Part shown: in pieces, positions 38,301 through 54,804 of the stretch
How the letters are laid out: each line of letters begins with the position of its first letter
How positions within the stretch are numbered: the first letter of the stretch is position 1
Assembly: GCA_021776925.1 (NCBI GenBank)
Contig: JAJFFB010000016.1
Coordinates: forward strand, 1-64,000
DNA from: Planctomycetota bacterium
GTDB taxonomy: Bacteria; Planctomycetota; UBA1135
Length of the DNA: 64,000 nt
Reading direction: 5' to 3'
Notes under the pieces: model-generated
Told to the model about the DNA's origin: nothing
What the model saw: only the letters and a program-made list of their open reading frames with translations
The model's database searches: none
Position numbers and translations under genes: made by a program

Positions 38301-38476
38301 CCAGCAGCTTCTGTGCTACTCTTGCATCCCCGTCCGATTGGACCACGGACGTGGACGCGCTTGCCGCCGAACAAAAGTGGCAGTTCTTCCAACTCCGGCT
38401 CACCTTCGTCGCCAACATCGACAAGGATCTAGAGCCTGTACTTGACGCATACGGATTCGCCTGGACCGTCCAATGA
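35354..38476 (+). CDS. Giant surface lipoprotein, subfamily A (copy 2)
   Basis: 1040 residues; lipobox LPSC (C27). Collinear with copy 1, 21 bases upstream: YWGRLVDVFDEDGN, NPITQAETLTI, ARNGAIKLVFSE, DSTISARDAAKYNIP, VSVRFNEAIDPATVL (Big_5-like Ig strand), DLAGNPLGFQGFVAG, WAPFDGNILDDVFDR and RFRCYPRGDF all have counterparts. It is acidic, with many DxDG-like turns but no clear catalytic site. The last 45 residues (WTTDVDALAAEQKWQFFQLRLTF...FAWTVQ) form the shared C-terminal domain. Its stop overlaps the next gene's start (ATGA), so the three giant genes form an operon. Confidence 0.8.
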   Translation: MAKSLSSLIAPWLGLAAAAGLLVLPSCGGGSATPAGPGTGFANLELEQAYWGRLVDVFDEDGNLFERDVVVRESIANNATSYNLVLNPITQAETLTIAAPMKNLDGSANQQFESLFNSATSGLAAVTPKGRIANGTYTRVARNGAIKLVFSEILAPATVNRLTVQLMLDDRVADVRYIVKESVGKDGEPKGVIVMDSTISARDAAKYNIPENGVGLRPSVNSTEGNAVLRIPTVVEKLFGQTQVLTNKNGTRNLAPTKSDPTESSQGLNPVVLRVMRSGNSSDPANGFMIDNQRPTLQADLETDVLMISTGATTTSMTYRVRAARCRPITPKVGDVVALQTGALLVTSIDDDSDHDAIVVSGGIIDGFLVDGDYTSSPLDGGLTTLYQPLDQEYQLCWLRFDPEPVDLPGSGVDPFSTVSVRFNEAIDPATVLALETFMLHSFVDTADEDNPHGGYRAGSESVCDFTKGLLGYTTTGTGSGRIYLGPISVSADSRTFTMAPSAGISDAHDEGVAGLNVALALCDRNIFDLAGNPLGFQGFVAGNIGQAETITMSAAGGTYPDDRYFALRANSLDENQDGLSEYTGQFVFDSQGLPGKLKGRDIMRFSRQADPSNTYVGQRAAWKQSGLMTPLTPGGAVLQTVYGYHHLGLGLTSPSEFNLDIEGLSWAPFDGNILDDVFDRYSIALAHSNRYPDDYIDPLSGYPAWGDSGLRSSTKFDNNILGFKQQGYNFDEQIVFDQPYSIAGANSFVAESGAIYAPWPDFTDFYTWRDTGMPEDLTGGANGSQKEYGIPVQQVARTNDPYYLFAEWPTVAAPLLMRFRCYPRGDFAGGNGFQVQIMMPSSSLPSFRVFSFGGNGGDLVLPDVGTTGTKPSGGVATGGGNQRAFGPELYWGQVDFVVRVSRVYTHWFALGGVLDGVSTQVNEPVQQPEGASLTVEWRGTEAITLPGDCIDQSNPLNDSAQIDFYGNYIGDTIHQDRLFDPPSSFCATLASPSDWTTDVDALAAEQKWQFFQLRLTFVANIDKDLEPVLDAYGFAWTVQ

Positions 38477-41400
38477 CCCCCCTCCGATCCTCTGTTCGCT
38501 TCCTGACCGCCGGCGCCCTGCTGGCGGTCACTGTGCTGCCGTCCTGTGGTGGCTCTTCGGTTTCTCCGGGCACCCGTTCCGCCGGGGCCTTCGAGGTACT
38601 CTCGACCACCATGTCCGACAATGACGTCTGGGCATTGAACCGGCCGATCGATTTCGTCTTCAACCATCCGGTGGACACTTCCACCATTGGTTTCAACTCG
38701 ATCATCATCAAGCCGGTCTCGCAAGAGATCCTGTCGCAGCCGGTGACCGGGTCCTTCTCGGTAGTCAGCGGGACCGGCGGCAAGGTCATCCGCTTCACCC
38801 CGGCCTGCCCGACCAACATCACCTTCTCCAATGGTGGTTTTATTCCGGGCGGTTTCGACTACACGCTGACCCTGCCGTCGAATGCCAACCAGGGTGGCCT
38901 GTCGCTGCTTCAGGACGACCAGGGCCGGACCCTTTCGGTCGGCCTCACGCGCAACTTCACCACGCCCTTTATCGGCGAGCCGCTGTTCATCGATACGGTG
39001 CTCGGCCCGCCCCAGCTGGTGGCGCGCCTGGCCGACGACTGGCCCAGCGGTCTGAACCTGTTCACCCGGCCTGACCCCTCCTTCGTGGTACGGGTCAATC
39101 AGCCGGTGGAGAGTTCCGACAGCAACCTCAACAACGACAACATCTTCATTCTCTACTCAGAAGCCGATGGCGTGACCTTTACCGGCACCAACAAGCTTCC
39201 CGGAGAGTGGCTGCTGATCGACAACTGCAATCTGACCGGAGCCACGCTGCGCTTCGAGGTCTCGGGAATCCTGCCACCCGGGCGCAAATTGCGCATGCAG
39301 TTGACCCCCGATTTTGCCGACCTGAGCGGCGAGACCAATACCACCACCCTGACCTATCTGGATAATTTCGGCGCGCCGCTGGATTACCAGCTGCCGACCT
39401 TGGGTGAATTCTACGGCGACGGTTCCGACTGGACCGCCAGTGTCACCTACGACGAATTCAGCGAGGATTTCGAGACCGATCTCGGCCTTGACCTTGCCGC
39501 CGAATTGTTCCTGCCGCCGATGAAGGTTTCCCGCGGCCACGTCGAAGCCAGTTTCGACTTCCCGCTGACCTCGATCGATCCGCAGGACAACTTCGTCGTC
39601 CGCAGTGGCATCTTCCTGATGGTCGACACCACCGGAACGACCACCGTCACCGACAGCAACGGACGCCAGTTCACCGTGGTCGACGGGGTGCTCGAGGTGC
39701 GTGATCTGACCGTCGAGGCAGGTGGCACCCTGAAGGCTGAAGGAGTGAATCCGCTGGTCATCTACGCCGCCGGGGCGGTCGACGTCCAGGGCACTCTGGA
39801 TGCCAGCGGCGACCACGCAAAATCTCCGCAGCGCGACAACGATCCGGGCCAGGTGGTCCCCGGCGCTTTCGGCCAGTGTGGTGGCGGCAGCGGTGGCACC
39901 GCTTCCTGGGTCACCAACGCCGAGACCTTGCGCGGCGAAGACGGCTTCGGTCCATTCGGGGTTCCCGCAGGGGGCGGGGGCGGTGGCGAAGGCGGATTCC
40001 AACAGGACCTCGGGGTGCTCAACGCCAACGAGACCGCCTCGGCGGAATTCCTGGTGGCAGCCGGCGCTGGCGGCGGCGGTTTTGCTCCGGGAGTGAATGA
40101 GTCTGTGCAGTGGGCCAAATGGTCGGGTGCGGAAAACTTGTTCTTCTTCATCAACGGGCAGATGACCCAGTTCGACAACAGCGGACCGGATACCCGTTAT
40201 CAGACCCGTCATACCGCGCTCGACATCTTCACCGATAACGATTTCGCGGGCGCTGAAACCGGTCTGCGCGGCACTTCGTGGAATTCGGGCAATACGGCCT
40301 TGCACGAAGGGCAGCTCGCGCCGCCGCCCTCGGCCGCCTACGGCATGGAAGATGGCACCCGCGATACCGGTCCGATCGATGGTCCCTTCGGTGGCCAGAG
40401 CCGTCTCTACGATCCGATCTGGACCAGCGGCAACCGGCGCTACAAGAAGGGGCAGCCGACCAATGGTCCCGACCAGGGGCGGGGTGGCTCGACGCTGTTC
40501 TCAGACGAGTTCACCGACAACGATTTCTGGGGAGCGCGCATCAATCCTGATGGCAGCGTCACCCAGGGCGAACTCACCGGCCCGATGGCGGGCAGCGGTG
40601 GCGGCGCCAGCGGCGACATGTCGATCATCGAGCGACCGATCATCGGCTTCGATCCAATGACGGGGGCACCGCTCTACGGCCCGTTGACCGACAACTACCC
40701 GGACCCCGAGTTCCCCAACGGCACCACCCTTGCCTACTACAAGGGCGCACCCGGCGGCGGCGGCGGTGGCCAGATGATGATCTTTGCCGTCGGCACGATC
40801 ACCATCGGCAACGACGCCCAGCTCAAGGTCAACGGCGGCAATGGCGCCGGCGGTGAGGCGGTGTTCCGCGATGACAATCAGGTTTCTGGTTCCGGCGGCG
40901 GCTCCGGCGGTCACATGGTCCTGCATACCGCCACCGGCCTCGACCTGACCGCGATCGACCTCGGGCTCGGCCCGGGTGCGACCATCGGCCAGATCAAGGC
41001 TCCCAACAACCGCCACGAGGTTGCGTTGGCGCTGGGCGGGCGGCGTGGCTGGAGCATGACCGGTCTGACCACCAATGGCGGTATCGTCGAGAACGACAAC
41101 CGCACCGACGGCAACTCCGACTACATGGTCGGCCGCGGCGGCGCCGGGGGCAATGGCCTGATCCAGATCCACGTGCCCAATCCGCTGACCGACATCGCCT
41201 TCCACCCCAACCTCGTTCCGGCGATCGATTCAGACGCCCCTGGTGGAATTCGCGAAGGACTGGATAGCGGGGTATTCCGCTATGCCAACAACGACAACCT
41301 GGAAGAAATCATGCGCGCCTTCTGTGTGCCGCAGCCGATGGTTTTGATCCCGGTCTTCGCCACCGGGTCGATGCTGCAGAGCCGCTGGCATGACACCGGC

Positions 41401-42096
41401 ACCGCACTCAACCGCAACCCGCTAGGCGACGTCGACGGCAAGTTCCTTTCCTTCGTCGACGCACAGCTGGCGATGGACGGCTTCATCACCGGCAACGCGG
41501 ATCTCGAACTCAATGGCCGCCTGAACATCACTGGGGACACGGTCGACGTGTTGCCGCCGGTGGCCTCGGGCACCACCCACTTGTCGGTGGGCAGCTTCTC
41601 GGCTCTGATGTCTTCGGCCAGCCTGCACTTCGCTGCCAATCCGCAGTTCCTCACCAATCCCAAGCTGTTGGTCGGCTACGACCTGCTGCCCTCGGCCCTC
41701 GGCCGTCCGACCGAATCCTTCGAGATCGTCGACGCGAGCTATGACGGCAATGGTCTGATGACCCTGACGACTGCGGCTTCCGACGGCGCCATGTCTCCCG
41801 CGCCCGGGGCGACCTGGTACATCCGGCCCAAGTTCGTGCGTCTGGACACCGCCGCGGTGAAGGATTCCATCACCACCGGTGGCTTCTTCCGCGCCGAGTT
41901 CCAAGGTGCCGATGGGTCGACCGACGGCAACAACACGATCACCAACCCGGGTTCGTGGACGACCGACCTGGCGGATCTGGCCGACCGCCGCTTCTTCCGT
42001 TACCGGATCACCCTGGAGATGGCTGAATCGGGTTCCTTCTCGATCTCCAACCCGCGGCCGCAGTTGCGCTACCTGAAGATTCCCTTCGCCTGGTAG
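38473..42096 (+). CDS. Giant Gly-rich surface lipoprotein, subfamily B (member 1)
   Basis: 1207 residues, lipobox LPSC (C25). After the anchor there are two Big_5/SbsA-type Ig-like regions (DVWALNRPIDFVFNHPVDTSTIGF near 50-75; a second near 200-300). A long region from about 430 to 880 alternates beta strands with glycine runs (VPAGGGGGGEGGFQQ, AAGAGGGGFAPG, APGGGGGGQMMIFAVG), suggesting a parallel beta-helix with Gly-rich loops. The C-terminal 50 residues (WTTDLADLADRRFFRYRITLEMAESG...FAW) match the end of the subfamily A proteins. Thus it links both subfamilies. A terminator follows 22 bases after the stop. No enzymatic motif was found; a structural or adhesive surface role is inferred. Confidence 0.78.
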   Translation: MTPLRSSVRFLTAGALLAVTVLPSCGGSSVSPGTRSAGAFEVLSTTMSDNDVWALNRPIDFVFNHPVDTSTIGFNSIIIKPVSQEILSQPVTGSFSVVSGTGGKVIRFTPACPTNITFSNGGFIPGGFDYTLTLPSNANQGGLSLLQDDQGRTLSVGLTRNFTTPFIGEPLFIDTVLGPPQLVARLADDWPSGLNLFTRPDPSFVVRVNQPVESSDSNLNNDNIFILYSEADGVTFTGTNKLPGEWLLIDNCNLTGATLRFEVSGILPPGRKLRMQLTPDFADLSGETNTTTLTYLDNFGAPLDYQLPTLGEFYGDGSDWTASVTYDEFSEDFETDLGLDLAAELFLPPMKVSRGHVEASFDFPLTSIDPQDNFVVRSGIFLMVDTTGTTTVTDSNGRQFTVVDGVLEVRDLTVEAGGTLKAEGVNPLVIYAAGAVDVQGTLDASGDHAKSPQRDNDPGQVVPGAFGQCGGGSGGTASWVTNAETLRGEDGFGPFGVPAGGGGGGEGGFQQDLGVLNANETASAEFLVAAGAGGGGFAPGVNESVQWAKWSGAENLFFFINGQMTQFDNSGPDTRYQTRHTALDIFTDNDFAGAETGLRGTSWNSGNTALHEGQLAPPPSAAYGMEDGTRDTGPIDGPFGGQSRLYDPIWTSGNRRYKKGQPTNGPDQGRGGSTLFSDEFTDNDFWGARINPDGSVTQGELTGPMAGSGGGASGDMSIIERPIIGFDPMTGAPLYGPLTDNYPDPEFPNGTTLAYYKGAPGGGGGGQMMIFAVGTITIGNDAQLKVNGGNGAGGEAVFRDDNQVSGSGGGSGGHMVLHTATGLDLTAIDLGLGPGATIGQIKAPNNRHEVALALGGRRGWSMTGLTTNGGIVENDNRTDGNSDYMVGRGGAGGNGLIQIHVPNPLTDIAFHPNLVPAIDSDAPGGIREGLDSGVFRYANNDNLEEIMRAFCVPQPMVLIPVFATGSMLQSRWHDTGTALNRNPLGDVDGKFLSFVDAQLAMDGFITGNADLELNGRLNITGDTVDVLPPVASGTTHLSVGSFSALMSSASLHFAANPQFLTNPKLLVGYDLLPSALGRPTESFEIVDASYDGNGLMTLTTAASDGAMSPAPGATWYIRPKFVRLDTAAVKDSITTGGFFRAEFQGADGSTDGNNTITNPGSWTTDLADLADRRFFRYRITLEMAESGSFSISNPRPQLRYLKIPFAW

Positions 42097-42118
42097 GCGC
42101 GCCCGCATCCTGGATCAG

Positions 42119-42159
42119 GCGCCTGTACCCGTTCGCGGGTGCAGGCGCTTCCATTTTCT
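42119..42159 (+). terminator. Rho-independent terminator with UUCG tetraloop
   Basis: A 13-bp stem (42119-42131 with 42136-42148, one U-G pair) is capped by TTCG and followed by TTCCATTTTCT. It ends the three-gene giant lipoprotein operon and separates it from the prepilin peptidase gene. Confidence 0.87.
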
Positions 42160-42206
42160 AGGGGTGGTGATTGAATCTGGGCCCTGGGCGAGCGCACCAT
42201 GGGGCG

Positions 42207-43193
42207 ATGGACTGGTGGCAGCAACTGCAGCAGGCAGACGTCCTGCGCACCATTTTCCTCGCCGTTCTGGGCGCGGTGGTGGGCTCCTTTGCCAGCGCGG
42301 CGATTTACCGGATTCCGCGCGAGGGAACTTCGCTGCTCAATCCGGTGCGCTCGCACTGTCCGATCTGCAGGGCGACCATCGCCTGGTACGACAATCTGCC
42401 GATCCTCAGTTATCTGCTCCTGCGCGGCCGCTGCCGTAGCTGCAAGATTGCCTATGGTCCGGGCTACATGATCCACGAGGTGGTCATGTCCGCTTTGTTC
42501 GTGGCCGCCGGCTCGAGCTGGGCGCTGCAGGCCGGGCCGTGGGCCATGCTCGTGGTGCTGGTGGTCCTGGCCGCTCTATGGATCGCCGCGGCGGTCGACT
42601 GGAACTGGCTGATCCTCCCTGACGGCATCACTTTAGGTGGAATCCCCTTCGCCATGGCGGCCTCCCTGCTGGTGCCGGAACTGCATCTCGGTGGTGATCT
42701 GACCCACCTGCCCTGGGGGGTGGATTGGGTCGGTCTGAGCCTCGAGGATGCGCCCGCCAAGGTCGCTTTCGCCTCTGCTGCATTAGGATCTTCGATTTCT
42801 TTTCTCGCACTGATTGGAATCCGTGCTCTGTTTTCGTATCTTCTTCGTCAGGAAGCCCTCGGGCTTGGGGACGTCAAACTCCTCGCGGCTGTGGGTGCCC
42901 TGCTCGGCTTGGAAGGGGCCGTCTGGACCCTTCTGATCGGCGTCGCTTCCGGCGCCGTTCTCGGGCTGCTGAACATTGTGCGGATGACCCTGGTGGTGCG
43001 ACAGCGCCGCCGCCGCCGCGGGCGGACCAGGGTTCTGAAAAGCTCCGTGTACATGGGATGGTGGCTCGGCCGGCTCTTTCCCTTCGGCCCGCCCCTGGTA
43101 CTGGGAACGGCCCTGGTACTGCTCCTTCCCGATCAGGTTCGTGAGTTCTTCCTCGTGACCTGGCCCAACTCACTACGGGGACCGCTTCCCTGA
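42207..43193 (+). CDS. pilD: Prepilin peptidase / N-methyltransferase
   Basis: 328 residues from the ATG at 42207; a TTG 12 codons earlier is less likely. This inner-membrane aspartic protease cleaves and N-methylates type IV prepilins and type II pseudopilins. The N-terminal methylase domain has the zinc cysteines C51, C54, C76 and C79 (HCPICRATI and GRCRSCK). The catalytic aspartates lie in AAVDWNWLILPDGIT and GLGDVKLLAAVGALLG. About seven to eight hydrophobic helices are visible. An Arg-rich cytosolic loop (QRRRRRRGRTR) near 275 is unusual. A pseudopilin substrate is encoded at 46016. Confidence 0.93.
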   Translation: MDWWQQLQQADVLRTIFLAVLGAVVGSFASAAIYRIPREGTSLLNPVRSHCPICRATIAWYDNLPILSYLLLRGRCRSCKIAYGPGYMIHEVVMSALFVAAGSSWALQAGPWAMLVVLVVLAALWIAAAVDWNWLILPDGITLGGIPFAMAASLLVPELHLGGDLTHLPWGVDWVGLSLEDAPAKVAFASAALGSSISFLALIGIRALFSYLLRQEALGLGDVKLLAAVGALLGLEGAVWTLLIGVASGAVLGLLNIVRMTLVVRQRRRRRGRTRVLKSSVYMGWWLGRLFPFGPPLVLGTALVLLLPDQVREFFLVTWPNSLRGPLP

Positions 43194-43238
43194 CCTCCCT
43201 GCCGCCCGCCGCAGACCCGCTCTCGACCCAGCAATTCC

Positions 43239-43934
43239 ATGAACAAGCTCATCACCCTCCTTGCCCTCGCCGCCGTCACCCTGCCGGCCTGCCAGACCGG
43301 CTTCCAACAGGAAAAACTGGCCGATGCGGACCGCCAGATCGAAGCCTACCGCAACCAGAACAACCAGCTGCGCAGCGACCGCGACATCGCCCTCGCTGAG
43401 AGCCAGCAGCTGCAGGAGGAACTTCAGTTCTCCCGCAGCCGCGGGAGTGAATTGGAGAACCGCGTCAGCGCCATGGAGGCCTCGGCGCAGCAAGCCGACG
43501 CCGAGGTCGAGAAACTGCGCGGCCAGCTCGCCGGCACCGGCGTCGGTGTCGAGCGCCGCGGCGACGTGCTGGTCCTCGACCTGCCGTCGAGCCTGACCTT
43601 CCCCTCGGGGTCTGCGACCCTCAATGACAAGGGGCGCAGCAGCCTCAAGGCTGTTGCCGCCGCCATCAAGGGCGAGTACGCGGCCAAGACCTTCTGGATC
43701 GAAGGGCATACCGACAATGACCCGCTCAACAAGACCAAGGACAAGTGGAAGACCAATCTGCGCCTGTCCTCCGAGCGGGCGATGGCGGTGGCCGACTATC
43801 TGGTCGGGGAAATGGGCATCAAGCAGTCCTCGGTGCGCACCGCCGCGCACGGCGAATGGGACCCGAAAGTGCCCAATTCCAACGTCAAGAACAAGGAGCT
43901 CAACCGTCGCGTCGAGATCCTGATCCTGGACTGA
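43239..43934 (+). CDS. OmpA-family peptidoglycan-binding lipoprotein
   Basis: 231 residues with lipobox LPAC (C18). Residues about 25-95 form a predicted coiled coil (KLADADRQIEAYRNQNNQL, then EENRVSAMEA-like heptads). Residues about 105-231 are an OmpA-like domain: LTFPSGSATLNDKGRSSL, WIEGHTDNDPL, LSSERAMAVADYL and the final NRRVEILI motif that binds meso-diaminopimelate. It probably tethers the outer membrane to the cell wall, as Pal does, with the coiled coil as a spacer. It is followed directly by a terminator. Confidence 0.9.
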   Translation: MNKLITLLALAAVTLPACQTGFQQEKLADADRQIEAYRNQNNQLRSDRDIALAESQQLQEELQFSRSRGSELENRVSAMEASAQQADAEVEKLRGQLAGTGVGVERRGDVLVLDLPSSLTFPSGSATLNDKGRSSLKAVAAAIKGEYAAKTFWIEGHTDNDPLNKTKDKWKTNLRLSSERAMAVADYLVGEMGIKQSSVRTAAHGEWDPKVPNSNVKNKELNRRVEILILD

Positions 43935-43953
43935 GAACGCCGCGGTAGCATGT

Positions 43954-43990
43954 CGGGCCGGGCCTGCTTCAGGCGCGGCCCGTTCCCTTT
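43954..43990 (+). terminator. Rho-independent terminator after the OmpA-like gene
   Basis: A 7-bp outer stem (CGGGCCG, 43954-43960, with 43976-43982) and a 5-bp inner stem (GCCTG / CAGGC) are followed by TTCCCTTTT. It lies 20 bases after the OmpA-like stop. Confidence 0.8.
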
Positions 43991-44028
43991 TCCCAGGTCC
44001 GGACGGACCGGTTGTTCATCCTCTGCTC

Positions 44029-46008
44029 ATGGCTGCTGCGGACATCCATAACATCACCTTCCTCGGCTACACCGATGGCGGGAAGACATCTCTGGTCGAA
44101 GCGGTGGCGCATCATTTTGGTGCCACCAAGAGGTTGGGAAGCGTCAACGAAGGCAATACCCTGACCGATTTCCTGCCGGAAGAACGGGACAAACACCATA
44201 GTCTGGCGGCGGGCATGGTCCACCTCGAGGCCCCGCATGGCAAGCTGAATCTGATCGACACCCCCGGCTACCCTGACTTCGTCGCCGATGCGATCACCTC
44301 GATGGGGGCCGCCGGGACCGCGGTCTTCGCGGTCGCCGCGCGCGAAACGGGAGTGCCTTTCCACACCCTGCGCTTGTGGAAGATGGCCGAAGAAACCGGC
44401 CTGGCACGTGCCGTGGTCATGACCAAGCTCGACGGCGACAATCTCGAACTCGAACAGATCATCGACGAGGTGCGCTCCACCCTGGGGCAACGCGTGGTGC
44501 CTTTCACAATGGCCAACGGCACCGGCAAGGAATTCACCGCGATCGAACTGGTTACCGGCGACGACAACCCACACCATTCCGACCTGGTCGACGCCATCGT
44601 CGAAGCCGACGACGACCTGATGGAGAAGTATCTCGAAAGCGGTGAGATATCGGCGGAAGAATTGGAGCGCGCGATTCCCGACGCGATGGCCAAGGGAACC
44701 TTCGCGCCGTTGTTTTGTGTCGACCCGATCCGCGGCATCGGCCTGGCCGAGTTCGCCGAATTCCTGGTGCGCGATTTCCCCAGCGCGCGGCGCCAGCTCG
44801 AAGTCATGCACAGCGAGAACATCGAGGACGGCAGTCCCGACTCGCGCGTCGTTGCCCGCGTCTGGAAGGTGCTGACCGACAAGCACCTGGGGCAGGTGAC
44901 CTACCTGCGCATCCTGCAGGGAACCGTCACCTCGGAGACCCAGTTGCTCGACCCCCATTCCGGGCGCACGGTCAAGGCCAATGGCCTGGCCATGGTCGTC
45001 GGCAAGGATCTGCAACCGGCCGCCAGCGCCGGCCCTGGCGACATCGTGGCGATCACCCGGGTCGACGATCTCGAGGTCGGCGACGTCCTGGTCAGCAACG
45101 GAGAAGCCACGCGCCACGAATTCCCGCTGCCCAAACCCTACTTCACCCTGGCGGTGAGCCCCAAGAGCCGCGCCGACGAGCAGAAGTTCTCTGGCGAACT
45201 GAACAAGGCAGCCAAAGAGGATCCGTGCATCCGCGTGCGCCGCGACGAAGCCACCCACGAGTCGCTGCTGGACGGCCTTTCCGAACTGCACCTTGAGACC
45301 GTGCTCAAGCGCGTCGATAGCCGTGGAGTCGGCGTCGAGACCAAACTGCCGCGCATCGCCTACAAGGAAACCATCACCGGTAAGGCAGACGGCCATCACC
45401 GCCACAAGAAACAGACCGGCGGCTCGGGTCAGTTCGGCGAGTGTTACATCCGCATCGCGCCGACCGTCCGCGGCGACGGATTCTTGTTCACCAACAAGGT
45501 CGTCGGTGGCTCGATTCCGCGCCAATTCATTCCGGCGATTGAAAAGGGCTGCAATGAACAGATGGTGGTCGGCATTCTTGCCGGTTCCGAAATCGTCGAC
45601 ATCGAGGTCGAGGTCTACGACGGCAAGCACCACGCGGTCGACTCGGACGAACTCTCCTTCAAGACCGCGGCACGCGTGGCCTTGCGCGAAGCCTTCATGA
45701 AGGCCAGCCCGATCCTGCTGGAGCCGATCATGAAGGTCGAGATCACTGTTCCCAGCCGTTACTTCGGCGACGTCAGCGGCGACCTAAACACACGGCGCGG
45801 ACAAATCTTGGGCATGGAGGCCGAAGGCGACTTCCAGACCATCCTGGCCGAAGTGCCGCTGGCCGAATTGCTGACCTACGGCACCATTCTGCGGTCGATG
45901 AGTCACGGTGAAGGCAGCTTTGCGATGGAATTCGATCGCTACGACCAAGTTCCCTCCCACGTGCAGGAGCAGGTGGTTGCCGGACTCCAGGCGCTGGCGC
46001 AAGACTGA
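44029..46008 (+). CDS. Elongation factor G-like GTPase
   Basis: 659 residues, about 40 shorter than EF-G. G1 reads GYTDGGKTSL (about 13-22) in place of GHxxxGKT, G3 is DTPGYPDF (about 76-83) in place of DTPGHVDF, and G4 is TKLD. The His-to-Tyr change in G3 removes the residue tied to GTP hydrolysis on the ribosome and is typical of the EF-G-like/EF-G2 branch rather than the main factor. Domains II-V are recognisable (HHRHKKQTGGSGQFGECYI near 455 opens domain IV). The true fusA is presumably elsewhere. The role of this branch is not settled. A pseudopilin gene follows 7 bases later. Confidence 0.88.
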   Translation: MAAADIHNITFLGYTDGGKTSLVEAVAHHFGATKRLGSVNEGNTLTDFLPEERDKHHSLAAGMVHLEAPHGKLNLIDTPGYPDFVADAITSMGAAGTAVFAVAARETGVPFHTLRLWKMAEETGLARAVVMTKLDGDNLELEQIIDEVRSTLGQRVVPFTMANGTGKEFTAIELVTGDDNPHHSDLVDAIVEADDDLMEKYLESGEISAEELERAIPDAMAKGTFAPLFCVDPIRGIGLAEFAEFLVRDFPSARRQLEVMHSENIEDGSPDSRVVARVWKVLTDKHLGQVTYLRILQGTVTSETQLLDPHSGRTVKANGLAMVVGKDLQPAASAGPGDIVAITRVDDLEVGDVLVSNGEATRHEFPLPKPYFTLAVSPKSRADEQKFSGELNKAAKEDPCIRVRRDEATHESLLDGLSELHLETVLKRVDSRGVGVETKLPRIAYKETITGKADGHHRHKKQTGGSGQFGECYIRIAPTVRGDGFLFTNKVVGGSIPRQFIPAIEKGCNEQMVVGILAGSEIVDIEVEVYDGKHHAVDSDELSFKTAARVALREAFMKASPILLEPIMKVEITVPSRYFGDVSGDLNTRRGQILGMEAEGDFQTILAEVPLAELLTYGTILRSMSHGEGSFAMEFDRYDQVPSHVQEQVVAGLQALAQD

Positions 46009-46015
46009 AGCCGGA

Positions 46016-46516
46016 GTGGCACGCGTTCTGCGCCTGGTCCGGCCTTCGCACAGGGGTGGGCGATCTGCGTTCACCCTACTGGAACTGGTCGCCCTGCTGC
46101 TGATCCTGGGCGCAGTGTCCGCGTTGTGGCTGCCCGGGCGCTACGAACACCGGCTCGCGGCCAATGAACACGGCGCCGAAGAGGTCCTGCGCATGATCCA
46201 GTCGGCTCAGGCCTGCTGGCTCGCCGAGCGTGGCCGCTACGCCGCACTGGGCATGCTCGCCAACGCCCCCGACGCAGATCTGCCCCGGGTCAACCAACGC
46301 GAGGCTCTGCTGCCCTTTCTCAAAGCGGGTTCGCACGGCCGCGCGCTTTATGGCGGCTATGAATTCAGCGAGCGGCGCAATGACCTGGGCCACCCCGGAG
46401 GGGTGTTGGCACGCCCTTCCCAAATGGGCTACAGCGGTCGTCGAGTGTTCCTGCTCGAATACGCCCAAGGCAGCCTGGTCGAGATCGAGGATCCGGGTCC
46501 GCCGCCGCTTTACTGA
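46016..46516 (+). CDS. Type II secretion / type IV pilus pseudopilin-like protein
   Basis: 166 residues from a GTG 7 bases after the EF-G-like stop, the only start near the prepilin motif. The N-terminus has a short basic leader (RPSHRGGRSA) followed by FTLLELVALLLILGAVSALWLPG, the class III prepilin signature with Glu at position +5. The residue before the cut is Ala rather than the usual Gly. The C-terminal part is small and globular (RMIQSAQACWLAERGRYAAL). It is a likely substrate of the prepilin peptidase at 42207. It is convergent with tatD. Confidence 0.8.
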   Translation: MARVLRLVRPSHRGGRSAFTLLELVALLLILGAVSALWLPGRYEHRLAANEHGAEEVLRMIQSAQACWLAERGRYAALGMLANAPDADLPRVNQREALLPFLKAGSHGRALYGGYEFSERRNDLGHPGGVLARPSQMGYSGRRVFLLEYAQGSLVEIEDPGPPPLY

Positions 46517-46534
46517 CCTGGATCCGCAGTCCCT

Positions 46535-47362
46535 TTACTGATCTGGGTTGCCTTGGATCGGGCGCGAATCAGGCGCCGCTGCAAACGAGGCCGGGGCACC
46601 GAAAAGGTCCACCGCGTTGTTCCAGGTCTGCTCGGCCAGTTCTTCCAGCGACACCCCGCGCAGCTCGGCCAGGCATTCGGCGGTATGGAGTACGAAGGCG
46701 GGTTCATTACGGCGCCCGCGGTGCGCTTGCGGCGCCAGGAAGGGCGCGTCGGTTTCGACCAGCAGGCGGTCGCTCGGCACCAGCGCCGCAGCCTCGCGCA
46801 GAGCGCCAGATTTCGGGTAGGTGAGGTTGCCGGCGAAGGAGACGTGCAGCCCGAGTTCGACGAAGGGGGCGACCCATTCGGGGCCCTGTGAGAAACAGTG
46901 CATGACACCACGCAGCGGGCCGGGCGCCGCTTCCAGGACCTGCAGCAGACGTGCCGCCGCCTCGCGGCAGTGCAGGATCAGCGGCAGGTCAAGGCGCGTG
47001 GCGAGTTCGAGATGAAATATGAGCGCGCTCTCCTGCACCGCGGCCTCGGTGCGGTCACGATAGAAGTCGAGACCGGTCTCGCCGATTGCCGCCCAGCCGC
47101 CTTGCGCCGCGAGGCTGCCGAGTTCTGCCAGGCTCTGTTCCAGGGCACCCAGCGGGCCAACGTCGTTGGGGTGAATGCCGACGCTGGCCAGCAGGCACGG
47201 GTGCAGATCTTGCAGGGCGCGCCCGTGGCGTGCGCTGGCGAGGTCGATCGCCACCGTCAGCATGGCCTCGACGCCCTGCTTGCCAGCACGTTCAATGCGC
47301 GCCGCGGCAGGGTCGCCCTCGATCTCCCAGGTGAGGTGGCAGTGGCTGTCGTACAGGCGCAT
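46535..47362 (-). CDS. tatD: TatD-family metal-dependent DNase
   Basis: 275 residues. The start is the ATG at 47362, giving MRLYDSHCHLTWEI; the longer frame upstream runs into the next gene. Family residues are DSHCHL (metal pair), GETGLDFYRD (Glu), LILHCRE (His), the GVMHCFSQG segment and LLVETDAPFLAP (Asp). TatD proteins are TIM-barrel 3'-5' exonucleases. It lies 11 bases after a HEAT-like exported protein and is probably co-transcribed with it. Confidence 0.93.
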   Translation of the reverse strand: MRLYDSHCHLTWEIEGDPAAARIERAGKQGVEAMLTVAIDLASARHGRALQDLHPCLLASVGIHPNDVGPLGALEQSLAELGSLAAQGGWAAIGETGLDFYRDRTEAAVQESALIFHLELATRLDLPLILHCREAAARLLQVLEAAPGPLRGVMHCFSQGPEWVAPFVELGLHVSFAGNLTYPKSGALREAAALVPSDRLLVETDAPFLAPQAHRGRRNEPAFVLHTAECLAELRGVSLEELAEQTWNNAVDLFGAPASFAAAPDSRPIQGNPDQ

Positions 47363-47373
47363 CGTGGGTGGCT

Positions 47374-48279
47374 TCAGGGCAGCGGCGGCAGACCGCGTTC
47401 GGCGCGCAGTTCCCGTACCAGAGCATAGAGGCCCGGCTGTACGTCGCGTGGCGGGACGCTGTCCATGAGCAGCTTTTCGCCCATTGCGGGGGCCAGTTCC
47501 AAGGTTGCCAGCAGCCCGGCCTTGCGCACGATCAGGTCGCCAGTCGAGGCGAGAAAAAGGCTGGCCATGTCGGCGGCGAGATCGGTGGCACCGCGTTCGA
47601 CCAGGGCATCGACGGCGGCGCGGCGGGCAGCGCCGTCGAGAGCATTGCGGTGCACTGCGGCGAGCAGCAGTTCTTTGGCCTGAGGTCCGACCTGGGCCGC
47701 GGCGACGTCGCGGATGAAACGCAGGTGCAGGTTTTCGGTGCCGCGCTCGGATTCGCGCAGCAGGCGGCCACCGCGCTGCAGCGCGATGTCGGGATCGTTC
47801 AGCCAGAAGACCCGGTGGCACCACAGCCTCAGTTCCACTGGAGTGGTGCGCTGCTCGACCGTCATCGCGCGTTGCATACTGCCACCTGGATCGGCGCGGT
47901 GGGCGGCGCGAAAAAGGGCGAGTCCTTCGTCGGCGTCGCGGCGCATACCCTGTTGCAGCCAGGCCAGCCACGGCAGCTCGGCGGTGCCGGGCAGGTCGGC
48001 GAGGGCGTCGAGGCAGGCGAACTGCAGCTTGCGCGCGGTGTGCAGATGTTCGGCGGTGTCGGCACTCATGCGCACGCGGCCCAGGGATTGTGCGGCAGCG
48101 AGCAGGGCTGCTGCGGGGGGGATGGCGGGGTCGAGTCCGGCACGCAGACGTGCGCGCTCGCCACAGGCACTGAAAGGAAGACTGGCGGGGTTGCTCTGGA
48201 CCGTGCCGCCGGCCACCGCGGCGGCGACGGCGATGGCGGCCGGAAATAGGGCACGGAGGCTTGCAAAGGCAGGGTTCAT
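47374..48279 (-). CDS. Exported protein of unknown function, alpha-helical repeats
   Basis: 301 residues. I recognise no family. The N-terminus looks like a signal peptide (ALFPAAIAVAAAVAGG). The rest is Ala/Leu/Arg-rich helices of about 30-40 residues that resemble HEAT or TPR-like repeats (KELLLAAVHRNALDGAARRAAVDALVERGATDL). There are three cysteines and no catalytic motif. It starts at an ATG, is divergent from the giant lipoprotein gene at 48423 and is followed by tatD. Confidence 0.7.
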   Translation of the reverse strand: MNPAFASLRALFPAAIAVAAAVAGGTVQSNPASLPFSACGERARLRAGLDPAIPPAAALLAAAQSLGRVRMSADTAEHLHTARKLQFACLDALADLPGTAELPWLAWLQQGMRRDADEGLALFRAAHRADPGGSMQRAMTVEQRTTPVELRLWCHRVFWLNDPDIALQRGGRLLRESERGTENLHLRFIRDVAAAQVGPQAKELLLAAVHRNALDGAARRAAVDALVERGATDLAADMASLFLASTGDLIVRKAGLLATLELAPAMGEKLLMDSVPPRDVQPGLYALVRELRAERGLPPLP

Positions 48280-48422
48280 GCGGTGTTTCGCCAGGAATGG
48301 AAAGGAGTTACTGCCGCTTCTCGGGTGCTAGAATCAAAGTGGCGGTCGGTGACGGAATCCCCCTTCCTGAAACTCCCGGCCGCAGCCCTGAGAGAGACGG
48401 TCAAGGCACCCGTCCCAGCACG

Positions 48423-51400
48423 ATGATCCGGATTCTACGGCTTTCCCTGCTCCTGCTTCCCTTCTCCCTGGCCGCCTGCGGTTCCGGCGGCTCCGGTGGT
48501 GCTTCCGGTGGCGCGGCGGCAACGCTGAAGCTCGACCTTTGTTCGCTCGGCTGTTCCGGAGGCAACTGCGCCATCCGCACGATTCAGGTCAACACCGACA
48601 TCGTCCTGACCTTCAATGATCAGGTCAACCCGGACACGGTCACCTTCACCGAGTTCTCGATTGTTGAGCGGGACACCGGCAGCACGCCTCCCGGGCAGTT
48701 CATGGTTTCCGGCAACCAGGTCATTTTCCGTCCGGCCTTTGTCGACGATGGCGTCAACGTATCCTTCGGATTCAACGATTCGATGGAGTACACCATCACC
48801 CTGTTCGCGGCGCCGCAGCACAGCGCGGTGGTGCGTTCCAGGATCGGCCGTCCGAATAGTTCGCCGCTCAGCTGCACGGTTCTTGCTTCCGGCATCCAGG
48901 ATTTCGTGCCCGGGCCGCCGATTGTCAGCGTGTCCCCGAACGAAGACGAACCGCCGACCAGCCGCTCCTTCCCGGTCACCATTCAGTTCAACGACATCAT
49001 CCTCAGTTCGCAGCTGATCGATGCACAAGGACAGAGTGCCACGGTGCAGGTTACGTTGGTCACCGACGACGGTCAGGGCAACCTGTCCGAGTTCGCGCTA
49101 CCCGGCAGCTTCGCTTTCCAATCCGACCTCGATCAGCGTCAATCCACCCTGGTGTTCAACTCGACCACCGACTTCCCGCTCGGTGGCAGCGGTCTGCGCT
49201 GGCTGCGCGTCGACGTCTCCAACCAGATCTCCGACCTGGTCGGCAACGGCCTCGGCAACCCCGGCTCCTACAAGATCCCGCTGATGGAAGGCAGCGGCGA
49301 CCTGGGGGAATTGGTCGAATCCTTCAATACGTCGACGGCGCGCGACGATGCCACCAGCACCTTCGGCCTGTGGACGGGCTCGGGTTTTCTCGACAGCGGC
49401 CTCGATCCGGTGACTGGCAACCACCACGGGGGCGGCCACGGCATCCTCGGCTTCGCCGATCTCGCCGGAATGGTTTTCGACACCGACAGCATGACCCTGG
49501 ATTCCGAACTGCTCGGTGTTCCGGTCACCCTCCAGGGCGCCCAGGCCGGAGTCTTCTTCTTCAGCGGTATCGAGGCCACCACCATCGGCCTGGTCAGCGC
49601 GATCGGAGCGCAGCCGGTGCGTATTTTCGTGCGCGGCAGCGCCGAGATCCAGACTCTGTTCGATCTCTCCGGAGAAGACGGCGAGGTCAATTTCGCCTTG
49701 CACCGTCCTTTCGACGAACGGCTTTCCTTCACCGCGCAGCAGGAACCGAGCGCTGCGATGCGCGCGCTGATGACCGATGACAACGAAGCCCTCGGCGGAC
49801 TCGGCGGCAGCGGCAAGCTCGGCGGCGGCGGCGGCGGTCAGGGGGGGGCTTCCTGGTACACCTTCCCGGGTTACTACGACGACGACAAGGTCGGTTGGTT
49901 CGTAGAGAGTTCCGGCTCTGGCAGCGCCGACACCACGCGCTACCTCGATGGTTTCGGCGGTGTCCAGGTGGTGGCCGCTCATGGCACCAATGGCGACGGA
50001 GTCGGCGGCACCGCTGCCAGTGGTCTGCCGCTTGGTGCAGAAGCCGCCAACCTGGTCGGCGACTTGATCGGGGGCTCCGGCATGGGTACCTGGGCGTGGC
50101 CGCCCAAGACCAACATGTTCCCGCTTGAGTCGGAAGTCAGCGGCGGCGACTGGTTCGGCACCCTGAACGGTCTCAAGGTCGAGGCCTACCGCGCCTCCAG
50201 CAACACCAACGCCTTCTATTCGCGCGCGCGCGCGCGCGGTGGCGGCGGCGGCGGTTTCTGGGGCGACGGCCAGCGTGGCTGGGTCCATGACAAGGCTGGT
50301 GCGGCCCGTGACCCTGAGAACAACAAGCTGGTCGGTCCCGACCTGGACCGCTGGGACGCTCCCACCAACTGGGACTTCAACGGCGACCGCACCCACAACG
50401 GCGGTGGCGCGGCAGACGAATTCGAGGTGTGGCCGTCGCTGCTGATGTGGGATGACCGCGCTGGCAAGTTAATCGAAGATGGCGCCGGCGGGGCTTACCG
50501 TCCCAAGGTCGGTGGCAATCCGGAGCCCTTCTACACACTTGACCCCGAGGCCGGCTTCCTGCGTGGCGGCGGCGGCGGCGGCGGCGCCGGCATGAGCCAG
50601 CACGGGTCGCACAACATCCACCTCAGTGGTCAGTCCGGAACCGTACCACGCCAGATCGAGACCTACCGCAGTGGTGACGGCGCCGGCGGCGGCGCCGGCG
50701 GCGCCGGGATGCAATTGCACGTCGGCAACGACCTGACCATCAGCGGCCAGATCTCGGTCGCCGGCGGCGACGGCGGTTCCTCGGCCTTCAAGGTGCCAAG
50801 CTCCTTCGGCGTCGACAAGAAAGCCTTCGTGCGCACCCTGCCCGGCGATGCCGGCGGCGGCGGTGGCGCGGCCGGATCGATGCTGCTGCAGGTCGGCGGC
50901 GACCTGACCCTGGACAATGGTGCGCTCAATCTGCAAGGCGGCAGCGGTGGCACCGGCTCGGTCGGCAATCACGGCGGCGACGGTGGTTATGGCCTTCTGC
51001 GCCTCGAAACGCCGCAGACCGTGACCCTCCCAGACCTGCAAAGTGTGGTTCTGCCGATTGAATCCTTCGATCTGGCTGACCGGCCTGAGTACGGGCTTAG
51101 TGGGGCCAACTGGTCCTCCTTCCCCGGGCGGCTGCCTGGCACCGTCGGCGACCTGACCGTGCCCCGCGCCGTCGGTGGGGGTACGGTCACCTTCGAAGGC
51201 AATTCCAGCGGCGTCGGTTCGGACTGGTACCTCGCCCCTGAAGCGGTGCTCTTCGCCCAGTTCTACGACTACGAGGTGGTGGTCTCGTGGAGCGACGGTC
51301 AAGGCGGATCCGGCGTGGTGCGCTACTCCGACATCAATCCGACCACTCCTGGAATCACTCCGCTGTGGTTGGCCATGCAGACCAGCTTCGCCGTCGACAA

Positions 51401-51623
51401 CAATGGCACCATCGAAGTCAGCGAAGGCTCCGAAAGCCCCTGGATCCTGCCCGGATACAACACCACCGGCGGCGGCGGCAATGCCCTGGAAACCGCCCCC
51501 GGCCCGACGCGGGCCATTCGCTTCCAGTTGGTCTTCGACCACGAACAGATCGCTGCTCTGATCGGCAGCAGCGCCGGCGCCACTTTCGAAGTGAGCGAGG
51601 TGCGTTTCCTGTGGCGGGAATAG
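48423..51623 (+). CDS. Giant Gly-rich surface lipoprotein, subfamily B (member 2)
   Basis: 1066 residues from the ATG at 48423, which places a signal peptide with lipobox LAAC (C19) first. A Gly/Ser spacer leads to CSLGCSGGNC (C40, C44, C49), two Big_5-type Ig-like regions (about 50-130 and 165-300), then a long beta-rich region with Gly runs (from about 430). Marked segments are GGASWYTFPGYYDDDKVGW, SRARARGGGGGGFWG, PFYTLDPEAGFLRGGGGGGGAGM and DLTISGQISVAGGDGGSS. It ends in a compact domain finishing VRFLWRE. No catalytic motif was found. The 5' leader has a TAGAAT box (48329-48334) but a poor -35. It is paralogous to the next gene end to end. Confidence 0.8.
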   Translation: MIRILRLSLLLLPFSLAACGSGGSGGASGGAAATLKLDLCSLGCSGGNCAIRTIQVNTDIVLTFNDQVNPDTVTFTEFSIVERDTGSTPPGQFMVSGNQVIFRPAFVDDGVNVSFGFNDSMEYTITLFAAPQHSAVVRSRIGRPNSSPLSCTVLASGIQDFVPGPPIVSVSPNEDEPPTSRSFPVTIQFNDIILSSQLIDAQGQSATVQVTLVTDDGQGNLSEFALPGSFAFQSDLDQRQSTLVFNSTTDFPLGGSGLRWLRVDVSNQISDLVGNGLGNPGSYKIPLMEGSGDLGELVESFNTSTARDDATSTFGLWTGSGFLDSGLDPVTGNHHGGGHGILGFADLAGMVFDTDSMTLDSELLGVPVTLQGAQAGVFFFSGIEATTIGLVSAIGAQPVRIFVRGSAEIQTLFDLSGEDGEVNFALHRPFDERLSFTAQQEPSAAMRALMTDDNEALGGLGGSGKLGGGGGGQGGASWYTFPGYYDDDKVGWFVESSGSGSADTTRYLDGFGGVQVVAAHGTNGDGVGGTAASGLPLGAEAANLVGDLIGGSGMGTWAWPPKTNMFPLESEVSGGDWFGTLNGLKVEAYRASSNTNAFYSRARARGGGGGGFWGDGQRGWVHDKAGAARDPENNKLVGPDLDRWDAPTNWDFNGDRTHNGGGAADEFEVWPSLLMWDDRAGKLIEDGAGGAYRPKVGGNPEPFYTLDPEAGFLRGGGGGGGAGMSQHGSHNIHLSGQSGTVPRQIETYRSGDGAGGGAGGAGMQLHVGNDLTISGQISVAGGDGGSSAFKVPSSFGVDKKAFVRTLPGDAGGGGGAAGSMLLQVGGDLTLDNGALNLQGGSGGTGSVGNHGGDGGYGLLRLETPQTVTLPDLQSVVLPIESFDLADRPEYGLSGANWSSFPGRLPGTVGDLTVPRAVGGGTVTFEGNSSGVGSDWYLAPEAVLFAQFYDYEVVVSWSDGQGGSGVVRYSDINPTTPGITPLWLAMQTSFAVDNNGTIEVSEGSESPWILPGYNTTGGGGNALETAPGPTRAIRFQLVFDHEQIAALIGSSAGATFEVSEVRFLWRE

Positions 51624-51663
51624 TCCACCTGGAGCTGCCACTCCCACCCCTGCCATCCTCCCC

Positions 51664-54600
51664 ATGACCAGGAGAACCGCCCCGATCCTCTGGTTTCCCA
51701 TGCTGGTGCTGGCCACCGCGTGTGGCGGCAGCGGATCTGGAAGCGGTGGCGGCGCTGCCGCCAGACTCAGCCTGATCGGCTGCACCCTGGGGTGCGCTGG
51801 CGGCAATTGCAGCGTTGGACAGATCGAAGAAAACGCCACCCTGGTGTTCAACTTCAATCAGGCGATCCAGGAATCCAGCGTTGGGCCAGACAGCATCTCG
51901 ATTACCCTTGCTGCGACGGGGGCGCCCGCAGTGGGGCAGTTCCAGGTCGCTGGCAAGGAGGTGCGTTTCGTGCCGACCTTTGTCGACGGCCCGGCCGGTC
52001 CGACCTTTGGGTTTGACCACGCCGGCCTGTATCGGGTCGAAATCGGCACCGGGTCCGCGACCCAGAAGCTGCGCAGCAGCAGCGGCGCGCTTGAGGGTCA
52101 GTTGTCGTGCCTGGTGCGCACCGAGGGCATCCAGGATTACGTGCCAGGCCCTCCGGTCGTGGCGGTCAGCCCCAGTGGCGGCAAACCCGCCGATGGCGCC
52201 TTCGACATCGTGCTGGTTTTCGCCGACGTATTGTCGCAGGTGCAGGTGCTCGACGGCGCCGGCGGGAGTCCGACCGTCGCGGTCGAACTGGTGACCGCCA
52301 CCGGTCCTGGACTGCCGGTGTCCGGCACCTTCTTTTTCCTCGCCGACGTGGATGCCGGGCAGTCGGTGCTGACCTTCCATCCAGACCAGGACTTTCCCTA
52401 CGATGCCAACGGCACGCGCCACCTCGAGGTGACGGTCGACGCCGCCATCACCGATCTGGCTGGCAACGCCTTGAGCAATCCCGGAGGGTTCCGGGTCGAA
52501 CTGCCGGCGGGCGGTCTGCAGGACGGCGAGCTGCTGGAAGACTTCACCGGCATCGTCCAACTCGACGCCGAGCGCAGCGCTGCCGGATTGTGGACCGGCA
52601 GCGGCTTTCTGGATTCCGGACTTGCCGCCGACACTGGGCGGCACCGCGGCGGCGGTCATGGCCTGCTTGGCGATGGCTCGCTCGACGGTCTGACCCTGAG
52701 CACCGAGGCGACCACTTTCTCTTCGCCCCTGCTCGGTCTTGACCTGGATCTGGACGGTGCCAACCAGGGCGCCTATTTCTTCACCAAGCTGGAACTCGGC
52801 ACCACCGCCAGCGCCAGCGGTTCCGCCCCCTTGCGTCTGATCACGCGTGGTGCGGTCAGCGTGACCGGAACGCTGAACCTGTCGGGAGCGGCGGGGGATC
52901 TGAACTTCCCGCTCTATCGGCCGGTGGACGAGCGCGTCTGGTTCCTGCCCGGCGAGGAGCCCAGCGCCGAAATGCAGTCCCTGCTGTCGGACCTGCAAGA
53001 AGCCACCGGCGGCCTCGGCGGCAGCGGTGAGCTCAGCGCCGGATCGGGGGGACAGGGTGGGGCCAGCTGGTACACCCTGGCCTTCTATTACGACGACGAT
53101 CTCGACGGCTGGTACGAGTGGGAGAAACCTCCCGGAGGCAACCCGCCCGATCCGGCGCGTTATTTCAACGGTGCCACCGGTCCCGCGACCACCACCGTGC
53201 ACGGCAGCAATGGTGGCCGCGTCGGCGGCGGTTTCGCCAGCGGCACGCCCTTCGGCGCCACCAACGCCGACCACGCGCTGGACCTGGATCAAGGCTCCGG
53301 CATGGGCACCTTCGCCTGGCCGCCGAAGAGCAATCGTCTGCCGCTGGACTCCGAGGTAAGCGCCAACACCTGGTGGAGCACCACCAATGGCGACGACATC
53401 GGCGCCTATTACTACACCGGCTCGGCGTTCTTCGAGTGGTTCTCACGCGCCCGCGCCCGCGGTGGCGGTGGTGGTGGTTATTGGCTGACCGGGGAGCGCG
53501 GCTGGGTGCACGACCCCGATCCGGCGTTCATGGACCCACGCGGAAGTCCGCTGGTCGTACCCGACCTGGATGATCTGCCCAATCAATCCAATTTCGATTT
53601 CAATGGAGTCCGCAGCTTCCTCGGCAGCGGCGATGAGCAGTGGCGTGACTGGCCCTCCTACCTGGCCTGGGATGGAGTCTCGGGTGGCAGCATGGAAGAC
53701 GGCGCCGGCGGCCAGCTCAGTGAAGAGAGCGGCGGGCTGCCGGTTGCATTCTTCACTTTGGATCCGGAAAGCGGATTTCTGCGCGGCGGTTCGGGTGGCG
53801 GCGGGGCCGGCATGGGACAACACGGCTCCTACAACCGCGAAGTCTTCAGCGGCGCCAACACCTTCGAGGCGATCGACAGCTATCGCACCTCCGACGGTGC
53901 CGGCGGTGGCGCTGGGGGGGGGGCGGTCCAGTTCCACTGTGGCGGCGACTTCCTGCTTTCCGGCCTGGTTGATCTGGCCGGCGGAGACGGCGGCAGCAGC
54001 GCCGCTCAGATCGCCGGCCCTTACGCCATCGATCCGGTCGCTTTCTTCAAGACCATGCCCGGAGACGCCGGCGGCGGCGGCGGATCGGGCGGAGCGCTGC
54101 TGTTGCAGGTCGGTGGCAATCTGCAGGCGGCAGCCAAATCGATCGACCTGAACGGCGGCGCCGGCGGCGTCGGCGCGGTCGGCAACCACGGCGGTTCCGG
54201 TGGTGCCGGGGTCCTGCGGCTGGAATCTGCCGCCGCCTTCGACCTCGGCGACCTCGATGGAATCGTGCTGCCGCTGGAAGCTGCCGACCTCGGCCAACGC
54301 CCTGAGTTTGGCCTCAGTGGTGCCAATTGGAGTGACTATGGAGTCGCGTGGCCCGGTGGATTCGGCGACTTCAGCGTCGCCCGTGCGGTGGGGGCTGGCA
54401 GCGTTTTCTTCAACGGCAACGCCAGTGGTGTGGCCTCGGGGTGGTACCAGGTTCCGACCACCGTGCTCGAGGCCACCTTGACTGGCTATCTGATCCGCTG
54501 CGAATGGAGCGACGGCAGCAGCGGTGCTCAGATCCTGGATTTCGACCAGGATCAGCCGCCGACGCCCGGACTGACGCCGCTGTGGATGGCCCTGCAGACC

Positions 54601-54804
54601 GCCGTTCCCGGCGGTAACGCGCGCCCTTGGCTGGTGCCCGGTTTCAACACGCTGGTCGGCGGCGTCGAGGAGCTGGCGACCCAGGCCACCGACCGCGCGC
54701 GATGGCATCTGGTCTTTGACCAAGATCTGGTCGCCGCCCTCATCGGCAACCACCCGAAGGCCTATTTCCGCGTGCTCGAGGTCCACCTCCTGTGGGAGGA
54801 ATAG
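51664..54804 (+). CDS. Giant Gly-rich surface lipoprotein, subfamily B (member 3)
   Basis: 1046 residues, anchored at C20 (LATAC). Collinear with the preceding gene: CTLGCAGGNC puts cysteines at exactly 40, 44 and 49. GIQDYVPGPPVVAVSP, GLWTGSGFLDSGL, GGASWYTLAFYYDDDLDGW, SRARARGGGGGGYW and FFTLDPESGFLRGG recur in order, and the end VHLLWEE matches VRFLWRE. The Gly-rich beta region suggests a repetitive beta-helix with loops. A run of ten G (53914-53923) encodes part of a Gly block. It starts 40 bases after the previous stop and its end overlaps the amidohydrolase start by 13 bases. Confidence 0.8.
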   Translation: MTRRTAPILWFPMLVLATACGGSGSGSGGGAAARLSLIGCTLGCAGGNCSVGQIEENATLVFNFNQAIQESSVGPDSISITLAATGAPAVGQFQVAGKEVRFVPTFVDGPAGPTFGFDHAGLYRVEIGTGSATQKLRSSSGALEGQLSCLVRTEGIQDYVPGPPVVAVSPSGGKPADGAFDIVLVFADVLSQVQVLDGAGGSPTVAVELVTATGPGLPVSGTFFFLADVDAGQSVLTFHPDQDFPYDANGTRHLEVTVDAAITDLAGNALSNPGGFRVELPAGGLQDGELLEDFTGIVQLDAERSAAGLWTGSGFLDSGLAADTGRHRGGGHGLLGDGSLDGLTLSTEATTFSSPLLGLDLDLDGANQGAYFFTKLELGTTASASGSAPLRLITRGAVSVTGTLNLSGAAGDLNFPLYRPVDERVWFLPGEEPSAEMQSLLSDLQEATGGLGGSGELSAGSGGQGGASWYTLAFYYDDDLDGWYEWEKPPGGNPPDPARYFNGATGPATTTVHGSNGGRVGGGFASGTPFGATNADHALDLDQGSGMGTFAWPPKSNRLPLDSEVSANTWWSTTNGDDIGAYYYTGSAFFEWFSRARARGGGGGGYWLTGERGWVHDPDPAFMDPRGSPLVVPDLDDLPNQSNFDFNGVRSFLGSGDEQWRDWPSYLAWDGVSGGSMEDGAGGQLSEESGGLPVAFFTLDPESGFLRGGSGGGGAGMGQHGSYNREVFSGANTFEAIDSYRTSDGAGGGAGGGAVQFHCGGDFLLSGLVDLAGGDGGSSAAQIAGPYAIDPVAFFKTMPGDAGGGGGSGGALLLQVGGNLQAAAKSIDLNGGAGGVGAVGNHGGSGGAGVLRLESAAAFDLGDLDGIVLPLEAADLGQRPEFGLSGANWSDYGVAWPGGFGDFSVARAVGAGSVFFNGNASGVASGWYQVPTTVLEATLTGYLIRCEWSDGSSGAQILDFDQDQPPTPGLTPLWMALQTAVPGGNARPWLVPGFNTLVGGVEELATQATDRARWHLVFDQDLVAALIGNHPKAYFRVLEVHLLWEE

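Follow-up and report, generated by a model that had tools for sequence, protein, structure and literature searches.

Large glycine-rich lipoproteins with Ig-like domains at a conserved locus of one Planctomycetota class

The closest described systems to the proteins considered here come from distant sources. HPI of Deinococcus radiodurans is a lattice-forming S-layer lipoprotein that consists of consecutive immunoglobulin (Ig)-like domains, contains a conserved disulfide, and is thought to be anchored to the outer membrane by its lipid (PMC10120038). The adhesin gp38 of Salmonella phage S16 contains a beta-helix and a polyglycine sandwich (PMC6851490), and a planctomycete surface protein has been reported without homologues in other bacteria (PMC12288469). 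We analyzed a stretch of 64,000 nucleotides, referred to as the window (contig JAJFFB010000016.1, positions 1 to 64,000), from a 4.59-Mb draft genome of a Planctomycetota bacterium (GCA_021776925.1). The window encodes the large lipoproteins A, B, and C, of which B and C belong to a family present in nearly all sampled genomes of their class and A is a remote homologue. With about an even chance of being right, we consider B and C, and more distantly A, to be constitutive lipoproteins of this class that are anchored in the outer membrane, face the surface, and have a structural or adhesive role.

Architecture and cysteine pairs of the lipoproteins

The lipoproteins and their features, by position in the window, are as follows.

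32186-35332, + strand: P0005, large Big_5-containing lipoprotein of 1048 amino acids, first of three in tandem (open reading frame (ORF); Pfam Big_5, 5.9e-6)
35354-38476, + strand: P0004, large lipoprotein of 1040 amino acids (ORF; homologues in relatives)
38473-42096, + strand: lipoprotein A, 1207 amino acids, with lipobox, Ig-like region, Gly-rich beta-helix, and C-terminal beta domain, without CxxxC (ORF; alignment; profile match to the N-terminus of B)
48423-51623, + strand: lipoprotein B, 1066 amino acids from the ATG (the mechanical ORF begins at TTG 48261)
48477-48479, + strand: lipobox Cys19 of B
48540-48569, + strand: C40-x3-C44-x4-C49 motif of B
48873-48875, + strand: Cys151 of B, putative disulfide partner of Cys49 (co-occurrence without exception in 86 sequences)
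49713-51032, + strand: Gly-rich module of B with conserved glycine motifs including SRARARGGGGGG, mostly without a confident model
51664-54804, + strand: lipoprotein C, 1046 amino acids, a diverged duplicate of B located 40 bases downstream of it
51781-51810, + strand: C40-x3-C44-x4-C49 motif of C
52108-52110, + strand: Cys149 of C, counterpart of Cys151 of B

The ORFs for A, B, and C are real and are kept free of stops in dozens of genomes. B and C are collinear, as the initial annotation had stated, with 48% identity from end to end; the cysteines at residues 40, 44, and 49 count out exactly in both proteins, and the motif SRARARGGGGGG and the LWRE or LWEE ends are also found in them. The lipid anchor, Ig-like domains, and Gly-rich beta region described in that annotation likewise hold up. 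B comprises two Ig-like domains (residues ~39-292), the start of a beta-helix (293-430), a Gly-rich region (431-870), and a C-terminal beta domain (871-1066). The lipobox cysteine, which is preceded by a hydrophobic N-terminal signal, is present in all 28 aligned members of the family and in 85 of 86 aligned homologues, the remaining one having a gap at this position. The sole Pfam family detected was Big_5 (PF13205), in 28 of 28 members of the family alignment, with scores of 26.2-26.4 bits for B and 27.4 for C, above the curated cut-off of 23.6, and of 17.6, below it, for A. None of the three proteins had a match in NCBIfam. The earlier view that they are unassignable to a named family was borne out, with no enzyme or named S-layer family matched in Pfam, NCBIfam, or PDB searches. 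The term "giant" was too strong: proteins of 1046-1207 amino acids are large, yet fall under the 5-kb threshold for giant genes in Planctomycetes (PMC5177795).

A had been said to share the Ig and Gly-rich parts of B and C and to lack the cysteines, and profile-profile comparison supports its status as a remote homologue without them. The Ig regions of A and B matched with a probability of 98.1 (E 9e-14, 250 columns) and their first helix rungs with a probability of 98.9; matches of the C-terminal domain of A were weak, both with P0005 (probability 77) and with B (probability 49). The set is not limited to A, B, and C, given that P0005 and P0004, which are paralogous (39% identity), lie directly upstream of A. 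The stop codon of P0004 and the ATG of A overlap by four bases, and P0005, P0004, and A therefore probably form a single transcript. A paralogue of A elsewhere in the source genome (L132:5478-9086, G000:C137; 39% identity) has a lipobox and no CxxxC near its start.

In a tree with SH-aLRT (Shimodaira-Hasegawa-like approximate likelihood ratio test) support from a quick search, C clustered with B and relatives from G002, G011, and G008, and tandem B copies arose more than once, in several families. A single ancient duplication as the origin of the B-C pair is unsupported by these groupings. The second B-family copy of G011 (L042:4596-7019) lacks the Ig N-terminus and has a lipoprotein-like start directly ahead of the later part of the protein, so that the helix part is separable.

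The cysteine triplet is not invariant as first proposed. Among 86 aligned homologue N-termini, C49 is missing in 16, each time together with C151; both residues are present in 70 and no sequence has only one of them. C40 and C44 are both present in 82 sequences and both absent in two, and in the other two the second cysteine has moved to give CSLGG[SA]PC. Because the residues co-occur as these pairs, the motif most probably contributes to two structural disulfides (Cys40-Cys44 and Cys49-Cys151) around the first Ig-like domain and not an active site. A metal or catalytic site was dropped as first choice given that C49 comes and goes with C151, and is also disfavored by a homologue from outside the class (L099, genome G167) that lacks all four cysteines yet keeps the domain and some of the neighboring genes. 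Another two cysteines, one inserted near 220 and one at 260, are found together in 20 rows. In five order-level sequences (L044-L046, L051, and L052), extra cysteines near 29, 36, 220 (inserted), and 260 mostly occur together, a pattern that suggests further disulfides in these families.

An AlphaFold2 model of B, built from nine sequences, showed a predicted local distance difference test (pLDDT) score of mostly 70-90 for the Ig-Ig region, the helix start, and the C-terminal beta domain; it was fair at mature residues ~30-400 and 890-1047 and poor between these segments save for short helix rungs. With regard to the beta-helix considered at the outset, its start was thus modeled in B, and the Gly-rich core was not. 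The model of A (pLDDT 43) was unusable. The best matches of the B model in a Foldseek search of PDB were mostly tandem Ig-like domains, including domains 4-5 of the S-layer protein Sap and LdtMt2. A viral fold library gave two significant matches, to an Ig-like domain protein and to a protein annotated as oligo alginate lyase; the alignments covered ~245 columns and the TM-scores were low. Others were weak, and these matches were set aside. PDB profile matches of Gly-rich stretches to Obg-type GTPases were at chance level.

Within the Gly-rich part, mean entropy was 0.44 bits in the conserved glycine motifs compared with 1.5-2.1 in the stretches between them, most of which vary in length. Many carbohydrate-active enzymes are beta-helices, and invariant Trp, Arg, and His residues adjoin the glycine motifs in the family alignment, as might be the case for a surface polysaccharide-active enzyme with a beta-helix catalytic domain. 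We regard such an enzyme as highly improbable, however: invariant columns of the Gly-rich region are nearly all glycine in the order-level alignment, no enzyme family was detected in Pfam or NCBIfam, and no enzyme domain was matched over the helix in PDB searches.

Distribution, gene order, and codon usage

Most of the genomes compared are incomplete drafts. A match to the B family was found in 25 of 26 genomes of its own taxonomic family (the source genome counted), mostly at full length and in single copy. With the family profile, it was detected in 149 of 151 genomes of the class and in all 53 of those with completeness of 90% or more and contamination of 5% or less. In class genomes outside the taxonomic family, the match is mostly to the first 400-480 positions from the N-terminus, and many of these genomes have an additional, separate match to the Gly-rich part. 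Matches outside the order in a phylum-wide sample were weaker and mostly limited to Ig or Gly-rich segments, with the exception of that in G167 (E 1e-56). A single-sequence scan of genome contigs found no relative, and an alignment scan of such contigs yielded seven loci, all labelled "MAG: Planctomycetota bacterium". Homologues of A were present in 61 of 61 relatives, with extra copies, and those of P0004 in 60 of 61.

Accessory adhesins are patchy in distribution. The B family occurs in practically all class genomes, even in assemblies of just 1.8-2.5 Mb, and at a fixed locus; an accessory adhesin for particles or hosts, to which the pattern of glycine motifs and variable loops might point by its resemblance to the polyglycine adhesin gp38 of phage S16 (PMC6851490), therefore appears quite unlikely. 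Pfam also gave Big_5 alone, and a search of PHROGs gave no annotated adhesin, only two families of unknown function (best E 0.003) and a weak tail-tube match. This near-universal presence at a fixed locus argues for a structural rather than an accessory role; of the proposed "surface adhesin or layer component", which is still conjectural, a constitutive envelope component is thus favored over an accessory adhesin.

The other genes of the locus are listed below.

42171-43193, + strand: type IV prepilin peptidase (PilD), conserved neighbor (Pfam A24_N_bact/Peptidase_A24; synteny)
43239-43934, + strand: OmpA-domain protein with lipoprotein-like N-terminus, conserved neighbor (Pfam OmpA, 2.7e-17; synteny)
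44029-46008, + strand: EF-G-like translation factor, conserved neighbor (named from its own sequence without a family scan; synteny)
45908-46516: pseudopilin-like protein with an FTLLE stretch near its start, without a Pfam match, overlapping the end of the EF-G gene
46538-47365, - strand: TatD-family nuclease, divergent from B across the order (Pfam TatD_DNase, 2.7e-68; synteny; start and coordinates approximate)
47377-48279, - strand: conserved hypothetical protein between TatD and B, without a Pfam match (synteny; Pfam scan)
54792-56078, + strand: amidohydrolase-family protein overlapping the end of C, conserved neighbor (Pfam Amidohydro_1, 3.6e-5, just under the cut-off; synteny)
56092-57105, + strand: DHH/DHHA1 phosphoesterase, conserved neighbor (Pfam; synteny)

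Gene order is kept across the other families of the order: Obg, PyrB, P0004/5, A, the prepilin peptidase, the OmpA-domain protein, and the EF-G-like factor, followed by TatD divergent from B (and C), the amidohydrolase, and the DHH phosphoesterase, with some pieces uncovered or undetected in each genome. P0005 is syntenic in L037 and L039. In two genomes outside the order, a B homologue lies near the DHH gene (L099 in G167:C84 and L136:5391-8981 in G170), and in G167 the amidohydrolase adjoins it as well. The pseudopilin-like protein is kept in several relatives close to the prepilin peptidase. Four order-level genomes (L126:9485-11473, L127:17068-19308, L128:13079-15034, and L130:12647-14584) carry an extra lipoprotein-like ORF of ~650-750 amino acids close to A or P0004, toward the prepilin peptidase, and the window has none at that place.

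The OmpA domain typically binds peptidoglycan, and the conserved OmpA-domain neighbor is a point in favor of a periplasm-facing scaffold, in which the lipoproteins would remain at the inner leaflet of the outer membrane, either connecting this membrane with the wall or filling the periplasm. Near-universal conservation would fit such a scaffold, and disulfides suit the periplasm and the surface equally. A beta-helix rich in glycine and a C-terminal beta domain, with loops of variable length, are commoner in exposed proteins, however, and Pfam detected no peptidoglycan-binding domain; we thus consider the scaffold credible though unlikely.

In a GC-rich genome, codon bias reflects abundance only weakly, and the rows for TatD and TrmE were not relied on because their coordinates are potentially out of frame. 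A, B, and C showed ordinary codon adaptation (0.58-0.60), unlike P0005 (0.685, E 1.13) and the OmpA-domain protein, whose codon usage lies among that of ribosomal proteins. B and C are therefore unlikely to be bulk S-layer subunits, and this part of the initial "layer component" proposal is weakened. The lipobox, Ig-like domains, and conserved disulfide, all as in HPI (PMC10120038), together with the Foldseek likeness to Sap, would nevertheless be in keeping with an S-layer lattice subunit analogous to the Ig-array lipoprotein of Deinococcus. Such a role is improbable given that there are just two Ig domains, that most of the protein is non-Ig, and that solved S-layer chains were not matched in sequence, with P0005 being the better candidate.

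A possible structural and adhesive surface coat

For B and C as surface-facing structural or adhesive lipoproteins, we envisage export via Sec and lipidation at the lipobox cysteine. The rule that Asp at position +2 directs sorting derives from E. coli; by extrapolation, a lipobox without Asp at +2, as here, suggests sorting to the outer membrane, with a Gly/Ser linker coming next. The two Ig-like domains would form a stiff stalk, the first being fastened by the two disulfides. The stalk would bear the beta-helix as a platform, with turns extended into the glycine-rich motifs, possibly as a polyglycine-II lattice, and the C-terminal beta domain at the end might serve as a binding or packing face. 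Together with A and with P0004 and P0005 from the same locus, B and C could cover the cell surface with a permanent coat of structural and adhesive function.

Several observations weigh against this model. The Gly-rich core of B (mature residues ~400-740) has no usable AlphaFold2 model, so that polyglycine-II packing is proposed from the sequence pattern. The stretches between the glycine motifs exceed the Ig domains only slightly in variability, which is not the pattern of a fast-evolving adhesin. On the tree, C49 and C151 have undergone just four changes of state each, and with so few events a sign test cannot reach significance. Finally, the neighboring genes are mostly of the housekeeping type, which marks the locus as old and gives no hint of function.

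A stronger version, in which the five or so lipoproteins of the locus co-assemble into a class-specific permanent coat of disulfide-fastened Ig stalks and polyglycine-II lattices, is in our view rather doubtful; if true, such a coat would underlie an unusual envelope of these Planctomycetota, which might conceivably be the Saltatorellus clade, known for changes of cell shape, should this prove to be the class concerned. Given that almost every sampled member of the class keeps the protein set at one locus, this set is a candidate defining part of the envelope of the lineage, and the aligned family set allows direct testing of polyglycine-type surface modules and of co-evolving cysteine pairs.

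Comparison with known surface proteins

The planctomycete surface protein mentioned above (PMC12288469) is likewise a surface protein in a planctomycete and was considered by description only. YTV (PF07639) had no match in A, B, or C and none in the source genome or in five sampled members of the order or family; as an alternative wall protein, it turned up in seven genomes, of which five belong to a single other family, and was uninformative. Big_5 matches part of the Ig stalk, amounting to less than one tenth of the protein, and the remainder is without a match in Pfam, NCBIfam, or PDB sequences.

The likeness to gp38, which consists of a beta-helix, conserved glycine-rich motifs including long Gly runs, and variable loops between them, is an analogy only. 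B and C differ from gp38 in being much larger and lipid-anchored and in having an Ig stalk, and polyglycine-II is here a reading of the residue pattern. No sequence relation to gp38 was detected, and neither Pfam nor PHROGs gave a match to a gp38 or adhesin family.

The Ig domains of B and C, two within ~290 of 1066 residues, are followed by a Gly-rich beta region and a C-terminal beta domain, and codon bias is not high; in these respects the proteins are unlike HPI. A profile search of PDB sequences up to E 10 matched no S-layer chains. Membership of the HPI type thus fails on both architecture and sequence. B and C nevertheless share with HPI a lipobox, proposed lipid anchoring in the outer membrane, Ig-like domains, and a conserved (here putative) disulfide. 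The family, without a name or function, is an orphan family of a known kind, and by analogy HPI of Deinococcus is its nearest functional counterpart.

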